Positions 3,727-62,688 of a stretch of 64,000 nt of DNA are shown one piece after another. Source of the stretch: Chroococcidiopsis thermalis PCC 7203 (lineage in GTDB: Bacteria > Cyanobacteriota > Cyanobacteriia > Cyanobacteriales > Chroococcidiopsidaceae); NCBI RefSeq assembly GCF_000317125.1, contig NC_019695.1, forward strand, positions 1,786,336-1,850,335, read 5' to 3'. Under the pieces are notes generated by a model. It was given only the letters and a program-made list of their open reading frames with translations, did no database searches and was not told where the DNA came from. Numbering within the stretch: position 1 is the stretch's first letter; every line of letters starts with the position of its first letter. A program made the translations under genes and the position numbers.

Positions 3727-3762
3727 CCGTGTAGAGATGTTACATGTAACGTCTCTACACGG
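3727..3762. repeat. REP palindrome (TGTAGAGACGT family)
   Basis: CCGTGTAGAG and CTCTACACGG bound a near-perfect 36-bp palindrome in the spacer between the MAPEG and nnr genes. It belongs to the same family as copies at 39549, 42938, 43276, 43716, 53022 and 62596, probably mobilised by the RAYT at 42985. Confidence 0.8.
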
Positions 3763-38904: not shown

Positions 38905-41900
38905 ATGTTCACACACGTCAAGTCCACCATCCGACACATTACGCCCGACAACCTGGCAGAACGTGCTTTAATCAAGGTGGTCTATGTCGTGCTAGAGTCC
39001 CAGTATCAGAGCGCCTTATCGCAAGCGGTACGCCAAATTAACCAAAGCAATCCGAATTTGGCGATCGAAATTAGCGGCTATCTGATCGAAGAACTCCGAG
39101 ACCCTGAAAACTACGAGGAGTTCAAGCGCGATATCCAAAGTGCCGACATCTTCATCGCCTCACTGATTTTTATTGAAGACTTGGCGCAAAAGGTGGTAGC
39201 GGCAGTAGAACCATACCGCGATCGCTTGGATGTGGCTGTTGTCTTCCCCTCAATGCCAGAGGTGATGCGCCTCAATAAAATGGGTAGCTTCTCGATGGCG
39301 CAGTTGGGACAATCCAAAAGCGCGATCGCCCAATTCATGCGCAAGCGTAAAGAAAAATCTGGGGCTTCTTTCCAAGACGGGATGCTGAAGCTACTCCAAA
39401 CCTTGCCCAAGGTACTGAAGTATTTGCCCATCGACAAAGCCCAAGATGCGCGTAACTTCATGTTGAGTTTTCAGTATTGGTTGGGGGGGTCGCCAGAAAA
39501 CCTGCAAAATTTCTTGCTGATGTTGGCGGATAAATACGTGTTGAATGGTGTAGAGACGTTGCACGCCACGTCTCTACAATACCGGGAACCCGTAGTTTAT
39601 CCCGACATGGGTATTTGGCATCCTTTGTCAACCACTATGTTTGAGGATGTCAAGGAATACCTCAACTGGCACAACAGCCGCCAAGATATCTCTAGCGACC
39701 TAAAAGACCCGCTTGCGCCTTGCGTGGGACTCGTACTGCAACGCACCCACCTAGTAACGGGGGATGATGCCCATTACGTAGCAATCGTGCAGGAACTCGA
39801 AGCAATGGGGGCGCGAGTGGTTCCTGTGTTTGCGGGTGGTTTGGACTTTTCCAAGCCCGTCGATGCTTATTTCTACGATCCAGTTAGTAAAAATCCGATC
39901 GTAGATACGGCGATCTCCCTAACGGGTTTTGCCTTGGTAGGAGGACCTGCACGACAGGATCATCCCAAAGCAATTGAAGCACTGAAGCGGCTGAACCGCC
40001 CTTACATGGTTGCCCTGCCTTTAGTGTTTCAGACGACGGAGGAGTGGCAAGATAGCGATCTAGGCTTGCACCCAATTCAAGTGGCACTACAAATTGCCAT
40101 TCCAGAATTGGATGGGGCGATCGAGCCGATTATACTATCAGGTCGAGACGGTGCGACAGGTAAAGCGATCGCCCTGCAAGACCGAATTGAAGCCGTTGCC
40201 CAACGTGCGATGAAATGGGCAAACCTGCGCCGCAAGCCGAAACTTGACAAAAAAGTGGCGATTACCGTTTTCAGTTTCCCGCCTGATAAAGGTAATGTGG
40301 GGACAGCCGCCTACTTGGATGTATTCGGTTCCATTTACGAGGTGATGCAAGCCCTGCGAAATAACGGCTACGACGTGCAGGATTTGCCAGAGTCGCCCAA
40401 AGAGTTGATGGAACAGGTGATCCACGATGCCCAAGCGCAGTACAGCAGCCCCGAACTCAATGTTGCTTACCGGATGTCCGTACCGGAATACGAAGCACTG
40501 ACTCCCTATTCGCAAAAATTAGAGGAAAACTGGGGACCACCACCAGGGCATCTCAACAGCGACGGGCAGAACCTTTTGGTATACGGCAAGCAATTCGGTA
40601 ATGTTTTTATTGGCGTACAGCCGACATTCGGCTATGAAGGCGACCCGATGCGGTTGTTGTTCTCTCGTTCTGCCAGTCCCCATCACGGTTTTGCGGCTTA
40701 CTACACATATTTAGAGCAAATTTGGCAAGCTGATGCGGTGTTGCACTTCGGGACGCACGGTTCCTTGGAATTCATGCCAGGAAAGCAAATGGGGATGTCG
40801 GGTGACTGCTACCCAGATAATTTAATTGGCATGATTCCCAACTTGTACTATTACGCAGCAAATAACCCCAGTGAAGCCACAATTGCCAAACGCCGCAGCT
40901 ACGCCGAGACGATTTCCTACTTGACACCACCAGCCGAAAATGCTGGATTGTACAAGGGTTTGAAGGAATTAAGCGAACTAATTGGTTCTTATCAAACTTT
41001 AAAAGATTCCGGTCGCGGTATCCCCATTGTCAACACCATCATGGATAAGTGCCGGATGGTAAATTTAGACCAAGATATTAACTTGCCCCAGCAAGATGCC
41101 AAAGATATGACTGCTGAGGAGCGAGATAATATTGTTGGCTTGGTGTATCGCAAGTTGATGGAAATTGAGTCGCGGTTGTTGCCTTGCGGGTTGCACGTTA
41201 TTGGGAAGCCGCCTTCAGCAGAGGAAGCGATCGCAACTTTGGTTAATATTGCTGGGTTGGATCGGGCTGAAGAAGAGATCCAAAGTTTACCTCGGATTAT
41301 TGCCAATAGCGTCGGGCGGGATATTGACGAAATTTATCACAATAGCGATCGCGGTGTCTTGGAAGACGTGCAATTATTACAAGACATCACCCTTGCCTCC
41401 CGCGCCGCCGTTAGCGCTTTGGTACAGGCACAAACCGACGCAGAAGGAAGAGTTTCCCTAGTTTCTAAGCTCAATTTCTTCAACATGGGTAAAAAGGAAC
41501 CTTGGGTAGAAGCTTTGCATCAAGCAGGTTACGCCAAAGTCGATCCGAATGCCCTCAAACCCCTGTTTGAATACTTAGAATTCTGCCTGCAACAAGTTTG
41601 TGCGGATAACGAACTGGGGGCTTTGTTACGGGGATTGGAAGGCGAATACATTTTACCTGGTCCTGGTGGCGACCCGATCCGCAACCCCGATGTGTTGCCT
41701 ACAGGTAAGAATATTCATGCCCTCGACCCGCAAGCAATTCCAACAATGGCAGCGGTGCGATCGGCGAAAATCGTCGTAGACCGCTTGTTAGACCGCAATA
41801 AGGCAGAAAATGGTGGAAAATTCCCTGAAACCATTGCCTGCGTCCTCTGGGGAACCGATAATATCAAAACTTACGGCGAATCCCTAGCGCAAATTATGTG

Positions 41901-42891: not shown

Positions 42892-42937
42892 ATCGTAGGT
42901 TCATTAGGTTATAACCGTGTAGAGACGTTGCATCGGG

Positions 42938-42967
42938 TGTAGAGACGTTGCATGCAACGTCTCTACA
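42938..42967. repeat. REP palindrome, perfect, 18 bp upstream of the RAYT gene
   Basis: TGTAGAGACGTTGCA and its exact reverse complement, no spacer. A second half-copy (TGTAGAGACGTTGCAT, 42918-42933) lies just before in direct orientation, giving a one-and-a-half unit array between chlH and the transposase. Confidence 0.9.
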
Positions 42968-42984
42968 TATATGCCTAAACCGAT

Positions 42985-43581
42985 ATGACTTTATTCAAAA
43001 ATAAATATCGCATTGAATCTACACGATTATCAAATCGAGATTATGCGGCAAATGGACTATATTTCATCACGATATGTACGGGCGATCGCACCTGCTTTTT
43101 CGGCGATATAGTCAATACACAGATACATTTATCTGCGATCGGGCAAATAGCTGAGAAATTTTGGGTAGAAATTCCTCAGCATTTTAAACATACATATATT
43201 GATGCTTATGTTGTGATGCCTAATCACGTACATGGGATTATTATTATAGATAAACCATATGTTGTTTCAACAACATGTAGAGACGTTGCATGCAACGTCT
43301 CTACAGACATATCGAACGATCTTGATGATTGCAATTTTTTTACAACAATGTCAATGATTTCGCCAAAATCTGGCTCCTTGAGTGCAATTTTGCAGTCTTA
43401 TAAATCTGCTGTTACTCAATGGTGTAGGAAAAATGGTTACGATAACTTTACTTGGCAACCAAGATTCTACGATCGCATCATTCGTGCAGATGGTTCTCTA
43501 GATAAAATTCGAGAATATATTGTTAATAATCCTACAAAATGGAAAGAAGACAAGAACAATCCTTCTAGTTTGTGGATGTAA
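42985..43581 (+). CDS. REP-associated tyrosine transposase (RAYT, IS200-like)
   Basis: Single-strand HUH-type Y1 transposase domesticated to move REP palindromes. The HUH pair is H81-V-H83 in VVMPNHVHGIIII, the probable nucleophile is Y162 in WQPRFYDRIIR, and the C-terminal REYIVNNPTKW is the RAYT signature. Length about 198, of which residues 98-107 ([10 protein letters not shown]) are a REP palindrome inserted in frame, and about residues 108-130 are also divergent. REPs lie on both sides at 42938 and 43716. No second IS end or target duplication could be identified. Activity is unproven given the insert. Confidence 0.9.
   Translation: MTLFKNKYRIESTRLSNRDYAANGLYFITICTGDRTCFFGDIVNTQIHLSAIGQIAEKFWVEIPQHFKHTYIDAYVVMPNHVHGIIIIDKPYVVSTTCRDVACNVSTDISNDLDDCNFFTTMSMISPKSGSLSAILQSYKSAVTQWCRKNGYDNFTWQPRFYDRIIRADGSLDKIREYIVNNPTKWKEDKNNPSSLWM
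43276..43305. repeat. REP palindrome inside the RAYT coding sequence
   Basis: Perfect 30-bp palindrome (TGTAGAGACGTTGCA arms), identical to the upstream copy at 42938, and in frame with the transposase. Confidence 0.92.
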
Positions 43582-43611
43582 TACCAATTTACTCATTGAC
43601 TACGACAAAAG

Positions 43612-43655
43612 AGATCCCCCCAACCCCCCTTATCAAGGGGGGCTAGGGGGGATCT
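43612..43655. repeat. 44-bp palindromic repeat (AGATCCCCCC ends)
   Basis: AGATCCCCC and GGGGGATCT enclose ACCCCCCTT and AAGGGGGG with a short TATC loop, a different hairpin repeat type, between the RAYT gene and the next REP. It could fold as a terminator for the transposase. Confidence 0.8.
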
Positions 43656-43691
43656 TCTGTAGCATAGTTTTAGTGAAATGGTATAATAAAA

Positions 43692-44258
43692 TTGAAACAA
43701 AATTGCTCCAAGAAATGTAGAGACGTTGCAGGCAACGTCTCTACATTTCTTGTTTTTATTAGAAAACCAACTGAAGCAGATTGTCAAGAATTGCTATCCT
43801 TTCACCAAAGAAGCAAGGAGTTTCATTTCCCTTGGGCTTTTCCTCCACTTAATGAGCAGGAGTGTAAAAACTATATTAATCGTTGCCAAAATGAAAACTT
43901 TGAAGGTTTACTGATTTGCCATTTAACCGACCGTAAAATTATTGGAGTAGCAAATTTCAGTCAAATCTTCTATCGAGCATTTCAAAATGCTTATCTTGGT
44001 AATTATGTTGATGTAGATTTTGCAGGTCAGGGATTGATGTTAGAGGGCGTACATTTAGCGATTGATTAGGCTTTTGATACACTTAATTTACATCGAGTTG
44101 AAACCAATATCCAGCCTGAAAACAGAGCATCAATTAATTTGGTAAAGCGGCTAGGTTTCACGAAAGAGGGCTTCTCTCGACGATACCTAAAAATCAACGG
44201 AGGATGGCGCGATCGTGAACGTTGGGCTTTAACGCTTGAAGATTGGGTAAAGAGTTAG
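43692..44258 (+). pseudogene. GNAT (RimJ-type) acetyltransferase with internal stop and REP-derived N-terminus
   Basis: Codons 43692-44066 end at TAG (44067-44069); the same frame continues AFDTLNLHRVETNIQPENRAS, LVKRLGFTKEGFSRRYLKING and WALTLEDWVKS to a stop at 44256-44258, together a complete RimJ/RimL-like fold (N-terminal IRKPTEADCQELLSFHQRS, acetyl-CoA region YVDVDFAGQGLMLEGV). The TAG replaces what would be a residue in the AxxAFDTLNLHR helix. The normal start is missing: the first codons read CRDVAGNVST from a REP at 43716, so the palindrome probably cut the 5' end. Probably non-functional. Confidence 0.75.
43716..43745. repeat. REP palindrome at the 5' end of the acetyltransferase remnant
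   Basis: TGTAGAGACGTTGCA / GGCAACGTCTCTACA, near-perfect; symmetry extends to AGAAA...TTTCT giving about 40 bp. Confidence 0.9.
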
Positions 44259-53021: not shown

Positions 53022-53051
53022 TGTAGAGACGTTTCATGGAACGTCTCTACA
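53022..53051. repeat. REP palindrome between convergent genes
   Basis: TGTAGAGACGTTTCA / GGAACGTCTCTACA, imperfect 30-bp palindrome. It reaches into the last codons of azlD (stop at 53047), so it overlaps a gene end and could also terminate both transcripts. Confidence 0.85.
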
Positions 53052-59937: not shown

Positions 59938-62688
59938 CTAGCGCTGCCTAGCCAGAGGTGACGATGATTTCAGCACAACTCGTTCGCCATAATTTAACAG
60001 CCTTTCAAGAGTAGTCAGGCGGTTTGACCACACGTTGACTTGGTAAGAATTTTCTAACGCTTGCGATCGCATCCAATTTTTAAACTGAGTCTGGAAGCTA
60101 TTTAAAGCTGTTCTAGCTGCTGCTAAGTTACTGACAGAAGGAGTTTGAGCTAAGCGATCCAAAGCAGTCTCTAAGTTTTGCGATCGAGTATTAAACTCAC
60201 TCAGTGCCGTCCCCTTCAACCAAAGCCGCTCGTTTGCCAGCAAGAATTGCCACTCTTGGCGCAAATTAACATAACGCGCCGCTGCTGTGTGGAAAGGCTG
60301 ACGATAAGGGACTGGTGCAGTCACTTTGACTTTTGTGCCTTGGGTGTTGTGAAAAACTTGCTGGAGTTCATCGTTGAGGTTTTCAACAGCAAAAAGGGCG
60401 TAGCCGCTCCCGGGTAAGTCTCTAACGAGCTGAATTTGGTCGAATGCACCCATAGTTGGTAAGTTCAGCAAGCGAATTCCTGGCAACAGCAAAGCCGAAC
60501 CGAGTTTGCTAGAGGTAATCCAGGGTTGGGCGAGGCGCTGAAAACGGTAGGAATCTAGAGCATAAGTCATCGGCACGATCAAATCTACATCGCCGCGATT
60601 TGCCCAGACTTCCCAGTGTTGCTGTAACTTATGGGTGCGATCGTGTTCTGATAGAGGAAAGACAGCCACAGACATCACCAAGTTAGGGCGCTTTTGCTTC
60701 AAGTAGCGGGAAGCTTGAGCGACAAAACCATCGATTTGTTGCGTGCGAAACTGCGTCCACCTTTGCCATAAATCGCGATCGCTTGGTTTAATTGTCGTTG
60801 GGTCTACGCCCGTCAGTTGTTGAAACTGCTGCCTGGCGGCAATTCCGTAACCATAAGTCCGGTCGGCGCTGGGGTCTTGGAAAGGATAGCGGATGTAGTC
60901 TAGTTGCAAACCATCCACGTTGTAGCGGCTGACAATTTCTTCGTAAAGCCGTAATAAATATTGTCTGGCGGCGGGGTTGGCTGGGTCTAAAAATGGCTTA
61001 CCTTGACCGGGCGGAAATAAACTCCCGCGATTATCGTAACTCGCCCACTCGGGATGAGCGGCAATGACGGGTCCTGGATAATCTGCGGGTAAATTTATCA
61101 GCGTATTATGACGCTTGTTGCCTACGGCAAAAGTCCACACCCAGGCATGTAACTCCATATTGCGATCGTGGGCTAACTTCACCGCTGATGCCAACGGGTC
61201 CCAGCCTCTAACTAGTGGGTTGGGTTGAGGTGCAACTTGACTGGGATAGATCGGATAGCCAGCATTAACGGTTTCAAAAAAGATTGTATTGATACCAGCA
61301 GCGGCGAGACGGTCAAAAATCTTTGCCAATCCTTGCTCCGAACCCGCACGAATAATACTACCTCGGTCTAGCCACATCGCCCGAATTTCTGGTTGAGCCG
61401 CGTACTGTTCGACGGGGTAGTTTTGCCATAGTAGTGCTTGTGCTTTGTGCCATTGCTGACGCGCCCCCGCAAAGTCCTTTTGGGCGATCGCCTGGGGTAA
61501 AGTTTTGGCAATTGCTTTCGCCTCTGCCACTGCCCTAGCTGCCGATTCTGGTAACGTACCCACAAAGGAGCCAGTTGTCGCTACAGCGGTTGTTTCAGAG
61601 TTAGTTAGCTGTGCCGTTGCATTATCATTCATGCTGCTACTAAAAGCACGAGCTGCTAACTGAGCGCTTTCAAATCTGCCAATCAGATTATCTAACTCTT
61701 GTTTAAGCGCAAATGCCTGTACCCCATCTAAACCTGGTGGGGCAATTCGTTCGATCGCCTCATCTGCTGGTAGTTTGTTGTTGGTAATTGGTGATTGGTG
61801 ATTGGTAATTGGTAATTGGTGATTGGTAATTGGTGAATTCTTCTCTGTCCCTCTGCTCCCTTGTCCCCCTTGTCCCCCTTGTCCCCCTTGTCCCCCTTGC
61901 TCCCTGCTCCCTGCCACCGCACTACTACAATTCTGCGGCGCTACCGTAGCCGACTCAGGCAAGGAAATATACTGACTTAAAGACGCTCTCAACCAAGCGC
62001 GATCGAAGTCTCCTGGTGATACGTGACTCGAACCCCAACGCCAACCTAAAACCGTGGCGCGATCGCTTTTGACGACTGCGGCTTGATTTATTTGTGACTG
62101 CCAAATCGCGATCGGTCTACTATTCACACCAGTAGGAATTACAACTCCTCCCTGCACCAAACCATCATTTCCGGCTGGCTCCAGCCAATCTTTACTATTA
62201 CCCTGTAAGGTTTGTAAGTTATTGGGAGCATCTAGAGGAAATCCCCAGTACGCGCCTAAAAGCGAACTCAAGAGCTGGCGTACCCCCGGCTGACTCGTAC
62301 TTCCAACAGCACCACTGGCTATGACTTTACCACCTCGGCTCATCCATGCTTCTAAGGCAAGTGCTTGGTTAAAGTCAATATTCTCTACGTTAGGTAGAAA
62401 GATAACAGAGCGATCGCTCAAATCGCTGGCATTTTTGACAGCAGCTAAATCGACGACGCAATAATTGACTCCTGCTGCTTGCAAGCGCGCAGAAATATCC
62501 ATCCACTGAGCTGCATTATCATCGCTTTTAACTACAGCTAAAACTGCGGGTTCTTCTGCGGCTGTAGCAGGTAAATAGAAGGCAAGAGGCAAAAGTAGAG
62601 ACGTTACTAGCGTCTCTATTAAAAAATTCACAGACCTAGCCCTTACCAGGGTTGGTAAGAAAGCAAAAATATCAAAATTTTTAGACAT
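59938..62688 (-). CDS. Secreted GHL10 (DUF187-type) glycoside hydrolase-like protein
   Basis: 916 residues. The signal segment (about 20-43, SVNFLIETLVTSLLLPLAFYLPATA) includes codons from a REP palindrome. A GATase-like/DUF4350-type N-terminal part (about 48-190) is followed by a low-complexity insert (about 258-307) of GQG and ITNHQLP units, then the GHL10 barrel (about 440-800) starting IRAMWLDRGSIIRAG with FFETVNAG and LQLDYIRYPFQDP. The tail is helical. Sugar substrate unknown. Its ATG overlaps the stop of the DUF512 gene (TAATG), implying coupled translation, and a GH5 gene follows. Confidence 0.85.
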   Translation of the reverse strand: MSKNFDIFAFLPTLVRARSVNFLIETLVTSLLLPLAFYLPATAAEEPAVLAVVKSDDNAAQWMDISARLQAAGVNYCVVDLAAVKNASDLSDRSVIFLPNVENIDFNQALALEAWMSRGGKVIASGAVGSTSQPGVRQLLSSLLGAYWGFPLDAPNNLQTLQGNSKDWLEPAGNDGLVQGGVVIPTGVNSRPIAIWQSQINQAAVVKSDRATVLGWRWGSSHVSPGDFDRAWLRASLSQYISLPESATVAPQNCSSAVAGSREQGGQGGQGGQGGQGSRGTEKNSPITNHQLPITNHQSPITNNKLPADEAIERIAPPGLDGVQAFALKQELDNLIGRFESAQLAARAFSSSMNDNATAQLTNSETTAVATTGSFVGTLPESAARAVAEAKAIAKTLPQAIAQKDFAGARQQWHKAQALLWQNYPVEQYAAQPEIRAMWLDRGSIIRAGSEQGLAKIFDRLAAAGINTIFFETVNAGYPIYPSQVAPQPNPLVRGWDPLASAVKLAHDRNMELHAWVWTFAVGNKRHNTLINLPADYPGPVIAAHPEWASYDNRGSLFPPGQGKPFLDPANPAARQYLLRLYEEIVSRYNVDGLQLDYIRYPFQDPSADRTYGYGIAARQQFQQLTGVDPTTIKPSDRDLWQRWTQFRTQQIDGFVAQASRYLKQKRPNLVMSVAVFPLSEHDRTHKLQQHWEVWANRGDVDLIVPMTYALDSYRFQRLAQPWITSSKLGSALLLPGIRLLNLPTMGAFDQIQLVRDLPGSGYALFAVENLNDELQQVFHNTQGTKVKVTAPVPYRQPFHTAAARYVNLRQEWQFLLANERLWLKGTALSEFNTRSQNLETALDRLAQTPSVSNLAAARTALNSFQTQFKNWMRSQALENSYQVNVWSNRLTTLERLLNYGERVVLKSSSPLARQR
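61770..61917. repeat. Spacer-type repeats inside the GHL10 gene
   Basis: TTGGTAATTGGTGATTGG units (7 bp) are followed by CCCCCTTGTCCCCCTTGT units (9 bp). On the coding strand these give ITNHQLP and GQGGQG. Both also occur as spacers at 10443 and 46963. Confidence 0.9.
62596..62618. repeat. REP palindrome remnant in the GHL10 signal peptide
   Basis: TAGAGACG and CGTCTCTA arms with a TTACTAG centre; same TGTAGAGACG family but shorter. It encodes residues about 24-31 (IETLVTSL) in frame within the hydrophobic segment. Confidence 0.7.

Follow-up and report, generated by a model that had tools for sequence, protein, structure and literature searches.

The RAYT gene in the 64-kb window (the window being the whole stretch of DNA that was analyzed) most probably forms a REPtron of TnpAREP subclass 2.4, that is, an HUH/tyrosine gene located after chlH, bordered by REPs and carrying another in frame, whose enzyme would act on REP hairpins and spread or replace REPs in a tolerant loop. 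The established part of this reading comprises the anatomy of the locus, the homology and predicted fold of the protein, the in-frame copy, a match between internal and flanking copies far above that of controls, and the wide recurrence of the arrangement. The locus supplies a cyanobacterial RAYT with identified REPs, and such defined enzyme-substrate pairs make the choice, spread, and keeping of REPs by RAYTs testable.

The RAYT gene and its predicted product

The gene (42985 to 43581, forward strand) encodes 198 amino acids and was identified from its ORF, its matches to PF01797 and NF047646, and the match of its predicted fold to 4er8. It contains the motifs NHVH, FYDRIIR, and REYIVNNPTKW and lies between REPs at 42938 and 43716, in agreement with the original prediction. 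The HUH motif (NHVH, residues 80 to 83; 43222 to 43233, forward strand) includes H81 and H83, which are invariant in a 64-row alignment of the window protein and 63 relatives. The putative catalytic tyrosine (Y162; 43468 to 43470, forward strand), located from the sequence, is invariant in an 11-row alignment of the window clade and is preceded by W157 and Q158 and followed by YIVNNP at residues 178 to 183. The match to PF01797 (Y1_Tnp) scores 30 bits, with a cut-off of 23. NF047646 (REP-associated tyrosine transposase) matches in two separate stretches with an E value of 6.6e-18, and the score of 65 bits falls short of the curated 80-bit cut-off; all 64 alignment rows match this model at an E value of 1e-3 or lower.

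The same alignment served for the structure model, and its 63 relatives, which come from several phyla, are 63 of the 80 loci of the second survey set described below, 17 having been omitted as unreadable, too long, or containing a stop. The resulting model has a mean pLDDT of 85.4, compared with 34.6 when the protein was folded without an alignment. Its top solved match in Foldseek is 4er8 (E value, 1.3e-7; TM score by target, 0.65), the Escherichia coli TnpAREP in complex with its REP hairpin, and a sequence-profile comparison also gives 4er8 (E value, 4.3e-5). The stretch of lowered confidence at residues 91 to 120 (block means of 52 to 65), which follows the HUH strand and precedes the next helices, contains the residues encoded by an internal REP, and the loop carrying this REP is predicted from the model to be disordered. 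Identity as an anti-phage defense gene was rejected, as PADLOC gave zero matches.

REP palindromes in the window and in the genome

A search of the window with TGTAGAGACGTTGCA, allowing up to 3 mismatches, found 16 places compared with 1.62 expected, and this number was reached in 0 of 100 shuffles, so that chance palindromes were rejected. HIP1 (GCGATCGC, as given in the source consulted) was rejected as the identity of the palindrome because its sequence differs. The window contains six full palindromes and one isolated half-site (42918 to 42932, forward strand, found by pattern search upstream of the gene), a tally below the at least seven copies previously claimed. The RAYT gene is flanked by 30-bp double-foot REPs of the form GTAG...CTAC, perfect or nearly so, namely, a perfect palindrome upstream (42938 to 42967), recognized by pattern search, its arms, and its hairpin fold, and a downstream copy found by pattern search (43716 to 43745). 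The third copy of the locus (43276 to 43305), with perfect 15-bp arms, had been counted among the spread copies and in fact sits inside the RAYT ORF itself, where it encodes 10 residues in frame (amino acids 98 to 107) between the HUH motif and the catalytic tyrosine. As single strands, the REPs of the RAYT locus each fold into a 13-bp hairpin of -12.8 kcal/mol, with a z score of -6.95 for the internal copy. The remaining full palindromes are a REP inside chlH, where it encodes 10 residues in frame (39549 to 39578), a dispersed TTAC-type REP with one changed base in one arm (3730 to 3759), and a dispersed TTTC/TTCC-type REP (53022 to 53051). Thus, the copies originally listed at 39549, 43276, and 53022 stand as full palindromes, the one placed at 3727 starts at 3730, and the one at 62596 is degenerate, with one arm and 3 mismatches.

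Comparison with relatives places the chlH REP in a loop of variable length, and among 20 relatives a clean 30-bp empty site was not readable, since the loop length varies. In three of these genomes (G021, G035, and G077), the residues at this place resemble decayed REP translations, as judged by eye. Two other features were observed beside the RAYT gene. An imperfect inverted repeat rich in CCCCCC/GGGGGG, unrelated to the REP, lies between the gene and the downstream REP (43599 to 43668). The downstream REP itself falls in the 5' part of a GNAT-like acetyltransferase frame, named by eye (43692 to 44257), which has an in-frame TAG at 44067 to 44069 and looks like a pseudogene.

The genome-wide search that had been proposed for the palindrome and for other RAYT genes found 125 palindromes of the form GTAGAGACGT...ACGTCTCTAC and two more RAYTs. 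The TTAC|GTAA variant accounts for 97 of the 125; among the 50 of these that were listed, 46 have the same sequence at all 28 positions, and this uniformity suggests recent spread. The symmetric TTGC|GCAA variant occurs in 6 copies, 3 of them at the RAYT (42938, 43276, and 43716), so that the variant of the RAYT locus differs from the bulk variant. With 125 palindromes across the genome, the family is not the local one of the original prediction. Five dispersed REPs (L001, L014, L018, L019, and L028) fall within open frames longer than 300 amino acids and are therefore probably inside other genes. A literature search with the letters of the palindrome returned unrelated papers only, among the matches listed.

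Other RAYTs and Y1 proteins of the genome

The two further RAYTs belong to the same group, and each has a different palindrome upstream, in the same loop, and downstream. One, at C1:203.5 kb, has the palindrome GTAGGGGCGCAC... and a gene with a TAG stop, and the other, at C1:423 kb, has the longer stem-loop GGGGCGGGTTT.... Thus, all three RAYTs of the genome contain an internal REP, each of its own type, and they are different genes with different REPs, the two that were aligned being 33% identical. The internal copies of the two other RAYTs score 9.0 and 6.1, which makes the palindrome threshold of 10 used below a strict one.

At an E value of 0.1, the other Y1 proteins of the genome are these two RAYTs and four IS200-like genes (L031 to L034). 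The window-type palindrome was absent from the 1.5-kb flanks of the latter, with one half-site at L034, and service of the bulk TTAC family by an IS200-like gene was rejected on these grounds. Identity of the window gene as an IS200 insertion sequence was likewise rejected, given three different RAYT genes with different REPs and a position after chlH shared by 10 of 12 loci; the mobile, multicopy transposase gene that marks IS200/IS605 was not found in the case of the window RAYT.

Internal REPs in RAYT loops across genomes

The genomes and loci of the survey carry G and L numbers, respectively. The first set consisted of 148 genomes of one order, drawn evenly, with 103 RAYT loci including that of the window, and the second, named set consisted of the best 80 of 577 loci from several phyla, 13 of them cyanobacterial. 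A regex parse read 78 of 103 loci in the first set (25 missed) and 43 of 80 in the second (37 missed). It was replaced by an HMM parse, which read 196 of 213 loci (98 of 103 in the first set, 80 of 80 in the second, and 18 of 30 in another RAYT class). The 178 RAYT loci of the two sets (98 plus 80) were scored together, with a long loop defined as one of at least 22 amino acids and a strong palindrome as one with a score of at least 10.

The loop DNA matched its own flanks (score of at least 18) in 36 of 78 RAYTs, compared with 2.5% of pairs with the flanks of other loci, and equal-length controls of the first set did so in 6 of 78 (N-terminal) and 2 of 78 (C-terminal) cases. The corresponding values for the second set, the best 80 of 577 loci, were 17 of the 43 parsed, compared with 7.9%, and 1 and 0 of 43 for the controls. 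Strong palindromes were found in 35 of 77 long loops in the first set (N- and C-terminal controls, 1 and 0 of 77) and in 62 of 80 in the second, again the best 80 of 577 (controls, 1 and 2 of 80), and 4 of 77 and 3 of 80 loops scored 10 or higher in one or more of 20 random resamplings. No strong palindromes were found in the 21 short loops or in the 18 parsed of the 30 loci of the other RAYT class. A matching copy in the flanks, within 1 kb, was found for 49 of the 91 internal palindromes that had 300 or more bases on each side and was missing for the other 42; the value for flanks of other loci was 8.8%. Some of the 13 cyanobacterial loci of the second set are probably first-set genomes, so that only the other 67 are surely independent; L278 has the internal REP and the scores of L077, and L279 has the internal REP of L075. 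An internal palindrome was present in 54 of these 67 noncyanobacterial loci. In 37 internal 28-mers, the arms pair in 505 of 518 cells, a count biased by their having been chosen as palindromes. The loops of L147, L159, L128, L140, L277, and L282 resemble tandem expansions, several of them of REP-encoded peptides (for example, RRNVSIHPT repeats), and expanded loops reach 117 amino acids in the first set.

Association with the palindrome and position after chlH

The window type comprises 12 loci (the window, L070 to L079, and L170) in a tree clade of 15 rows; the other three rows (L159, L163, and L167) form a separate branch, and their genomes were counted as lacking a window-type RAYT. The palindrome was found in 12 of 13 genomes with a window-type RAYT (including G103, in which the gene is broken) and in 39 of the 135 without one among the 148 genomes (Fisher P value of 1.0e-5, uncorrected for kinship). 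Together with the homology, the predicted fold, and the flanking and internal copies, this association bears out the original view of the gene as a RAYT with cognate REPs. The occurrence of the palindrome in relatives without the RAYT, which had been named beforehand as an outcome that would speak against the RAYT as mobilizer of the family, was observed in part; the 39 genomes, 17 of which hold at least 20 copies, count against a simple one-to-one link of RAYT and REP.

The chlH gene for magnesium chelatase subunit H (TIGR02025/PRK12493; 38830 to 42891, forward strand) lies directly upstream of the window RAYT, which starts 93 nucleotides past it. Including the window, chlH is upstream in 10 of the 12 window-type loci of the order, in nine families, at distances (from estimated starts) of within about 120 nucleotides in seven loci and of about 443, 882, and 985 nucleotides in three. 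No chlH was found beside L075 and L076 or beside L159, L163, and L167 of the separate branch. In G103, the RAYT after chlH is broken into two frames, and G065 retains a C-terminal RAYT remnant. The place after chlH thus recurs in many loci, as it would for a gene that is retained at its position. It is not universal, because chlH was present in the flank (up to 2.5 kb) of only 2 of the 13 cyanobacterial loci of the named set, L278 (Planktothrix rubescens PCC 7821) and L280. Of the 132 other regions downstream of chlH, 80 were searched and yielded no RAYT apart from the G065 remnant; 52 of 143 such regions lay outside the survey. A palindrome of the family type occurs just past the chlH stop in 7 of the 41 RAYT-less regions whose genomes hold the family, and palindromes of other sequences were also seen there by eye in some of 20 stretches, which weakens the idea that a lone palindrome after chlH is a scar.

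Turnover of the internal REP and lone internal copies

A quick tree of 78 RAYTs was made with the loop excluded, and 30 of its 75 inner branches are weak. By the turnover threshold, an internal palindrome is present in 33 of the 78 genes and missing from 45, and the minimum number of changes on the tree is 15 for palindrome presence, 8 for reading phase, and 25 for the inner arm. Reading phase was counted among the 26 genes with a readable foot, which use two phases (15 and 11 genes); the third would put the TAG of GTAG in frame. The changes on the tree and the phases are better explained by recurrent insertion or rewriting than by a single ancient insertion.

Three genomes (G041, G064, and G120) have no exact copy of the internal REP type apart from the internal one. 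The sole exact GCGAACGG palindrome of G064 is inside its RAYT, and 51 other places lie within 3 mismatches, most of those listed showing a symmetric change to GAATGG|CCATTC and six of them only that change. The sole exact GCGAACGG copy of G041 is also inside the RAYT, with one variant within 3 mismatches elsewhere. In G120 (7.4 Mb), the only GACAAGG palindrome within 3 mismatches is the one inside the RAYT, a gene with a TAG stop, whereas G110, whose RAYT shares this REP type, holds 40 copies; many copies are likewise present in G114, G060, and G135. The GACAAGG-type internal REP (GTAGAGACAAGG...) is common to cyanobacterial (L110 and L112) and Bacteroidota (L335, L342, and L344) RAYTs, which, at the level of sequence, suggests interphylum transfer.

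Explanations of the locus

In the proposed mechanism, the enzyme would recognize GTAG...CTAC and would bind and cut the single-stranded REP hairpin TGTAGAGACGTTGCATGCAACGTCTCTACA, and this cutting may spread or replace REPs. Copies would repeatedly land or be rewritten in the disordered loop that separates the HUH strand from the helices after it. They would persist there because GTAG...CTAC can be read through in two of its three frames and additional residues are tolerated in the loop; insertions elsewhere in the RAYT gene would be lost. From the sequence evidence, it is plausible that the window RAYT mobilizes the REP family. Several observations count against this explanation: the variant at the RAYT locus is not the bulk variant here, the internal copy is not of the bulk type in G064, 39 of 135 genomes without a window-type RAYT hold the palindrome, the protein scores below the NF047646 cut-off, and the 42 of 91 internal palindromes without a matching copy within 1 kb are not predicted by local hopping alone.

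Alternatively, the RAYT may have been domesticated and may no longer spread REPs here, the 97 TTAC copies having come from an earlier or lost enzyme; the shared location behind chlH (10 of 12 window-type loci, in nine families), the difference between the RAYT-locus and bulk variants, and the 17 genomes that lack a window-type RAYT and hold at least 20 copies would all fit such a history. We consider it rather unlikely, as the near identity of the TTAC copies listed (46 of 50) suggests recent spread, the remaining Y1 proteins found at an E value of 0.1 comprise a pair of RAYTs whose REPs differ and four IS200-like genes whose 1.5-kb flanks lack the palindrome, and chlH flanks only 2 of 13 cyanobacterial loci in the named set. 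The palindrome after chlH could also be chiefly a transcript-end hairpin of chlH, with the RAYT there by accident, since RAYT-less genomes have a same-type palindrome soon after the chlH stop (7 of 41 holding the family) and palindromes of other sequences stand there in some of the 20 stretches viewed by eye. The presence of the RAYT in 10 of 12 window-type loci, the broken copy of G103, and the C-terminal remnant of G065 make this reading very unlikely.

The lone internal copies raise another alternative, namely, that the internal REP is functional, either in autoregulation through a hairpin in its own gene or message or as a substrate seed that refounds the family after transfer or loss. The 42 of 91 internal palindromes without a matching flank, the sole copy of G120, the sole exact copies of G041 and G064, and the GACAAGG type in the RAYTs of two phyla, as if gene and REP had traveled together, are consistent with such a function. 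Nevertheless, a functional internal REP appears unlikely: 45 of 78 genes have no palindrome by the turnover threshold, its presence switches a minimum of 15 times across the tree, the gene of G120 contains a TAG stop, and G041 and G064 hold one and 51 additional copies, respectively, at up to 3 mismatches. The broader proposition that RAYTs retain their own substrate within the coding sequence, as a seed protected there or as a site for self-control, which moves between phyla with the gene, outlasts other copies, and is rewritten with the REP type, is decidedly doubtful. If the internal copy were functional, a transposase-like gene would store its own substrate in frame. The REPtron reading, in which the enzyme would act on REP hairpins, remains the preferred one, and what remains most intriguing is the reason that so many internal copies are solitary. 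A natural test series is provided by the same gene after chlH in nine families, whose internal REPs vary in the inner arm, and by the three genomes with an internal copy that is the sole exact representative of its type.

Comparison with known systems

The window RAYT shares the Y1_Tnp domain and fold with the TnpA of IS200/IS605 and differs from it in having one RAYT per REP type and a place after chlH in many relatives. With the E. coli TnpAREP REPtron (4er8), it has in common the fold (by model), the HUH motif and tyrosine, and flanking GTAG REPs. However, REPs inside the gene are described by Quentin et al. (2018; PMC6006769) as unique to subclass 2.4 (and some of subclass 2.8), not the subclass 2.2 of E. 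coli, and the E. coli REPs are bulged, whereas those of the window are perfect palindromes (PMC8266576). In the latter study, Corneloup et al. (2021) describe a RAYT with perfect-palindrome REPs that requires GTAG for cleavage; terms for subclass 2.4 and internal copies were not found in its available text. Di Nocera et al. (2013; PMC3733652) describe cyanobacterial GTAG REPs, intragenic GTAG REPs in other species, and REPs that flank transposase genes or overlap their ends. Their cyanobacterial GTAG-12, -15, and -16 REPs share the GTAG foot with the window REPs, a likeness drawn from the description.

In the account of Quentin et al., subclass 2.4 is defined by NH[IFV]H, WQ, and YIxNNP, occurs in Cyanobacteria and Bacteroidetes, has double-foot REPs, and carries in-frame REP insertions within tnpAREP itself, as a rule in the segment that separates HuH from Y; the designation group 4 is taken from their summary of Bertels 2017. 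The window gene shows NHVH, WQ and YIVNNP, double-foot flanks, and an in-frame REP between HuH and Tyr. The published motifs, length of about 194 amino acids, long HUH-Tyr spacer, GTAG...CTAC REPs, and in-frame internal REP of subclass 2.4 (RAYT group 4) are all shared by the window gene, with no qualitative differences from that description. On these sequence features, the window gene is assigned to subclass 2.4, the architecture of which is already described in PMC6006769. A limited literature search that included PMC6006769, PMC3733652, PMC8266576, and PMC2817692 (Nunvar et al. 2010), as far as their available texts extend, found no report of the chlH neighborhood or of a test of internal REPs against their own flanking REPs. 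To the account of PMC6006769, the supplementary figures of which may hold part of this material, the present analysis adds counts with controls, the match of internal copies to their own flanks, three RAYT-REP pairs in one genome, the chlH neighborhood, and the difference from the bulk variant.
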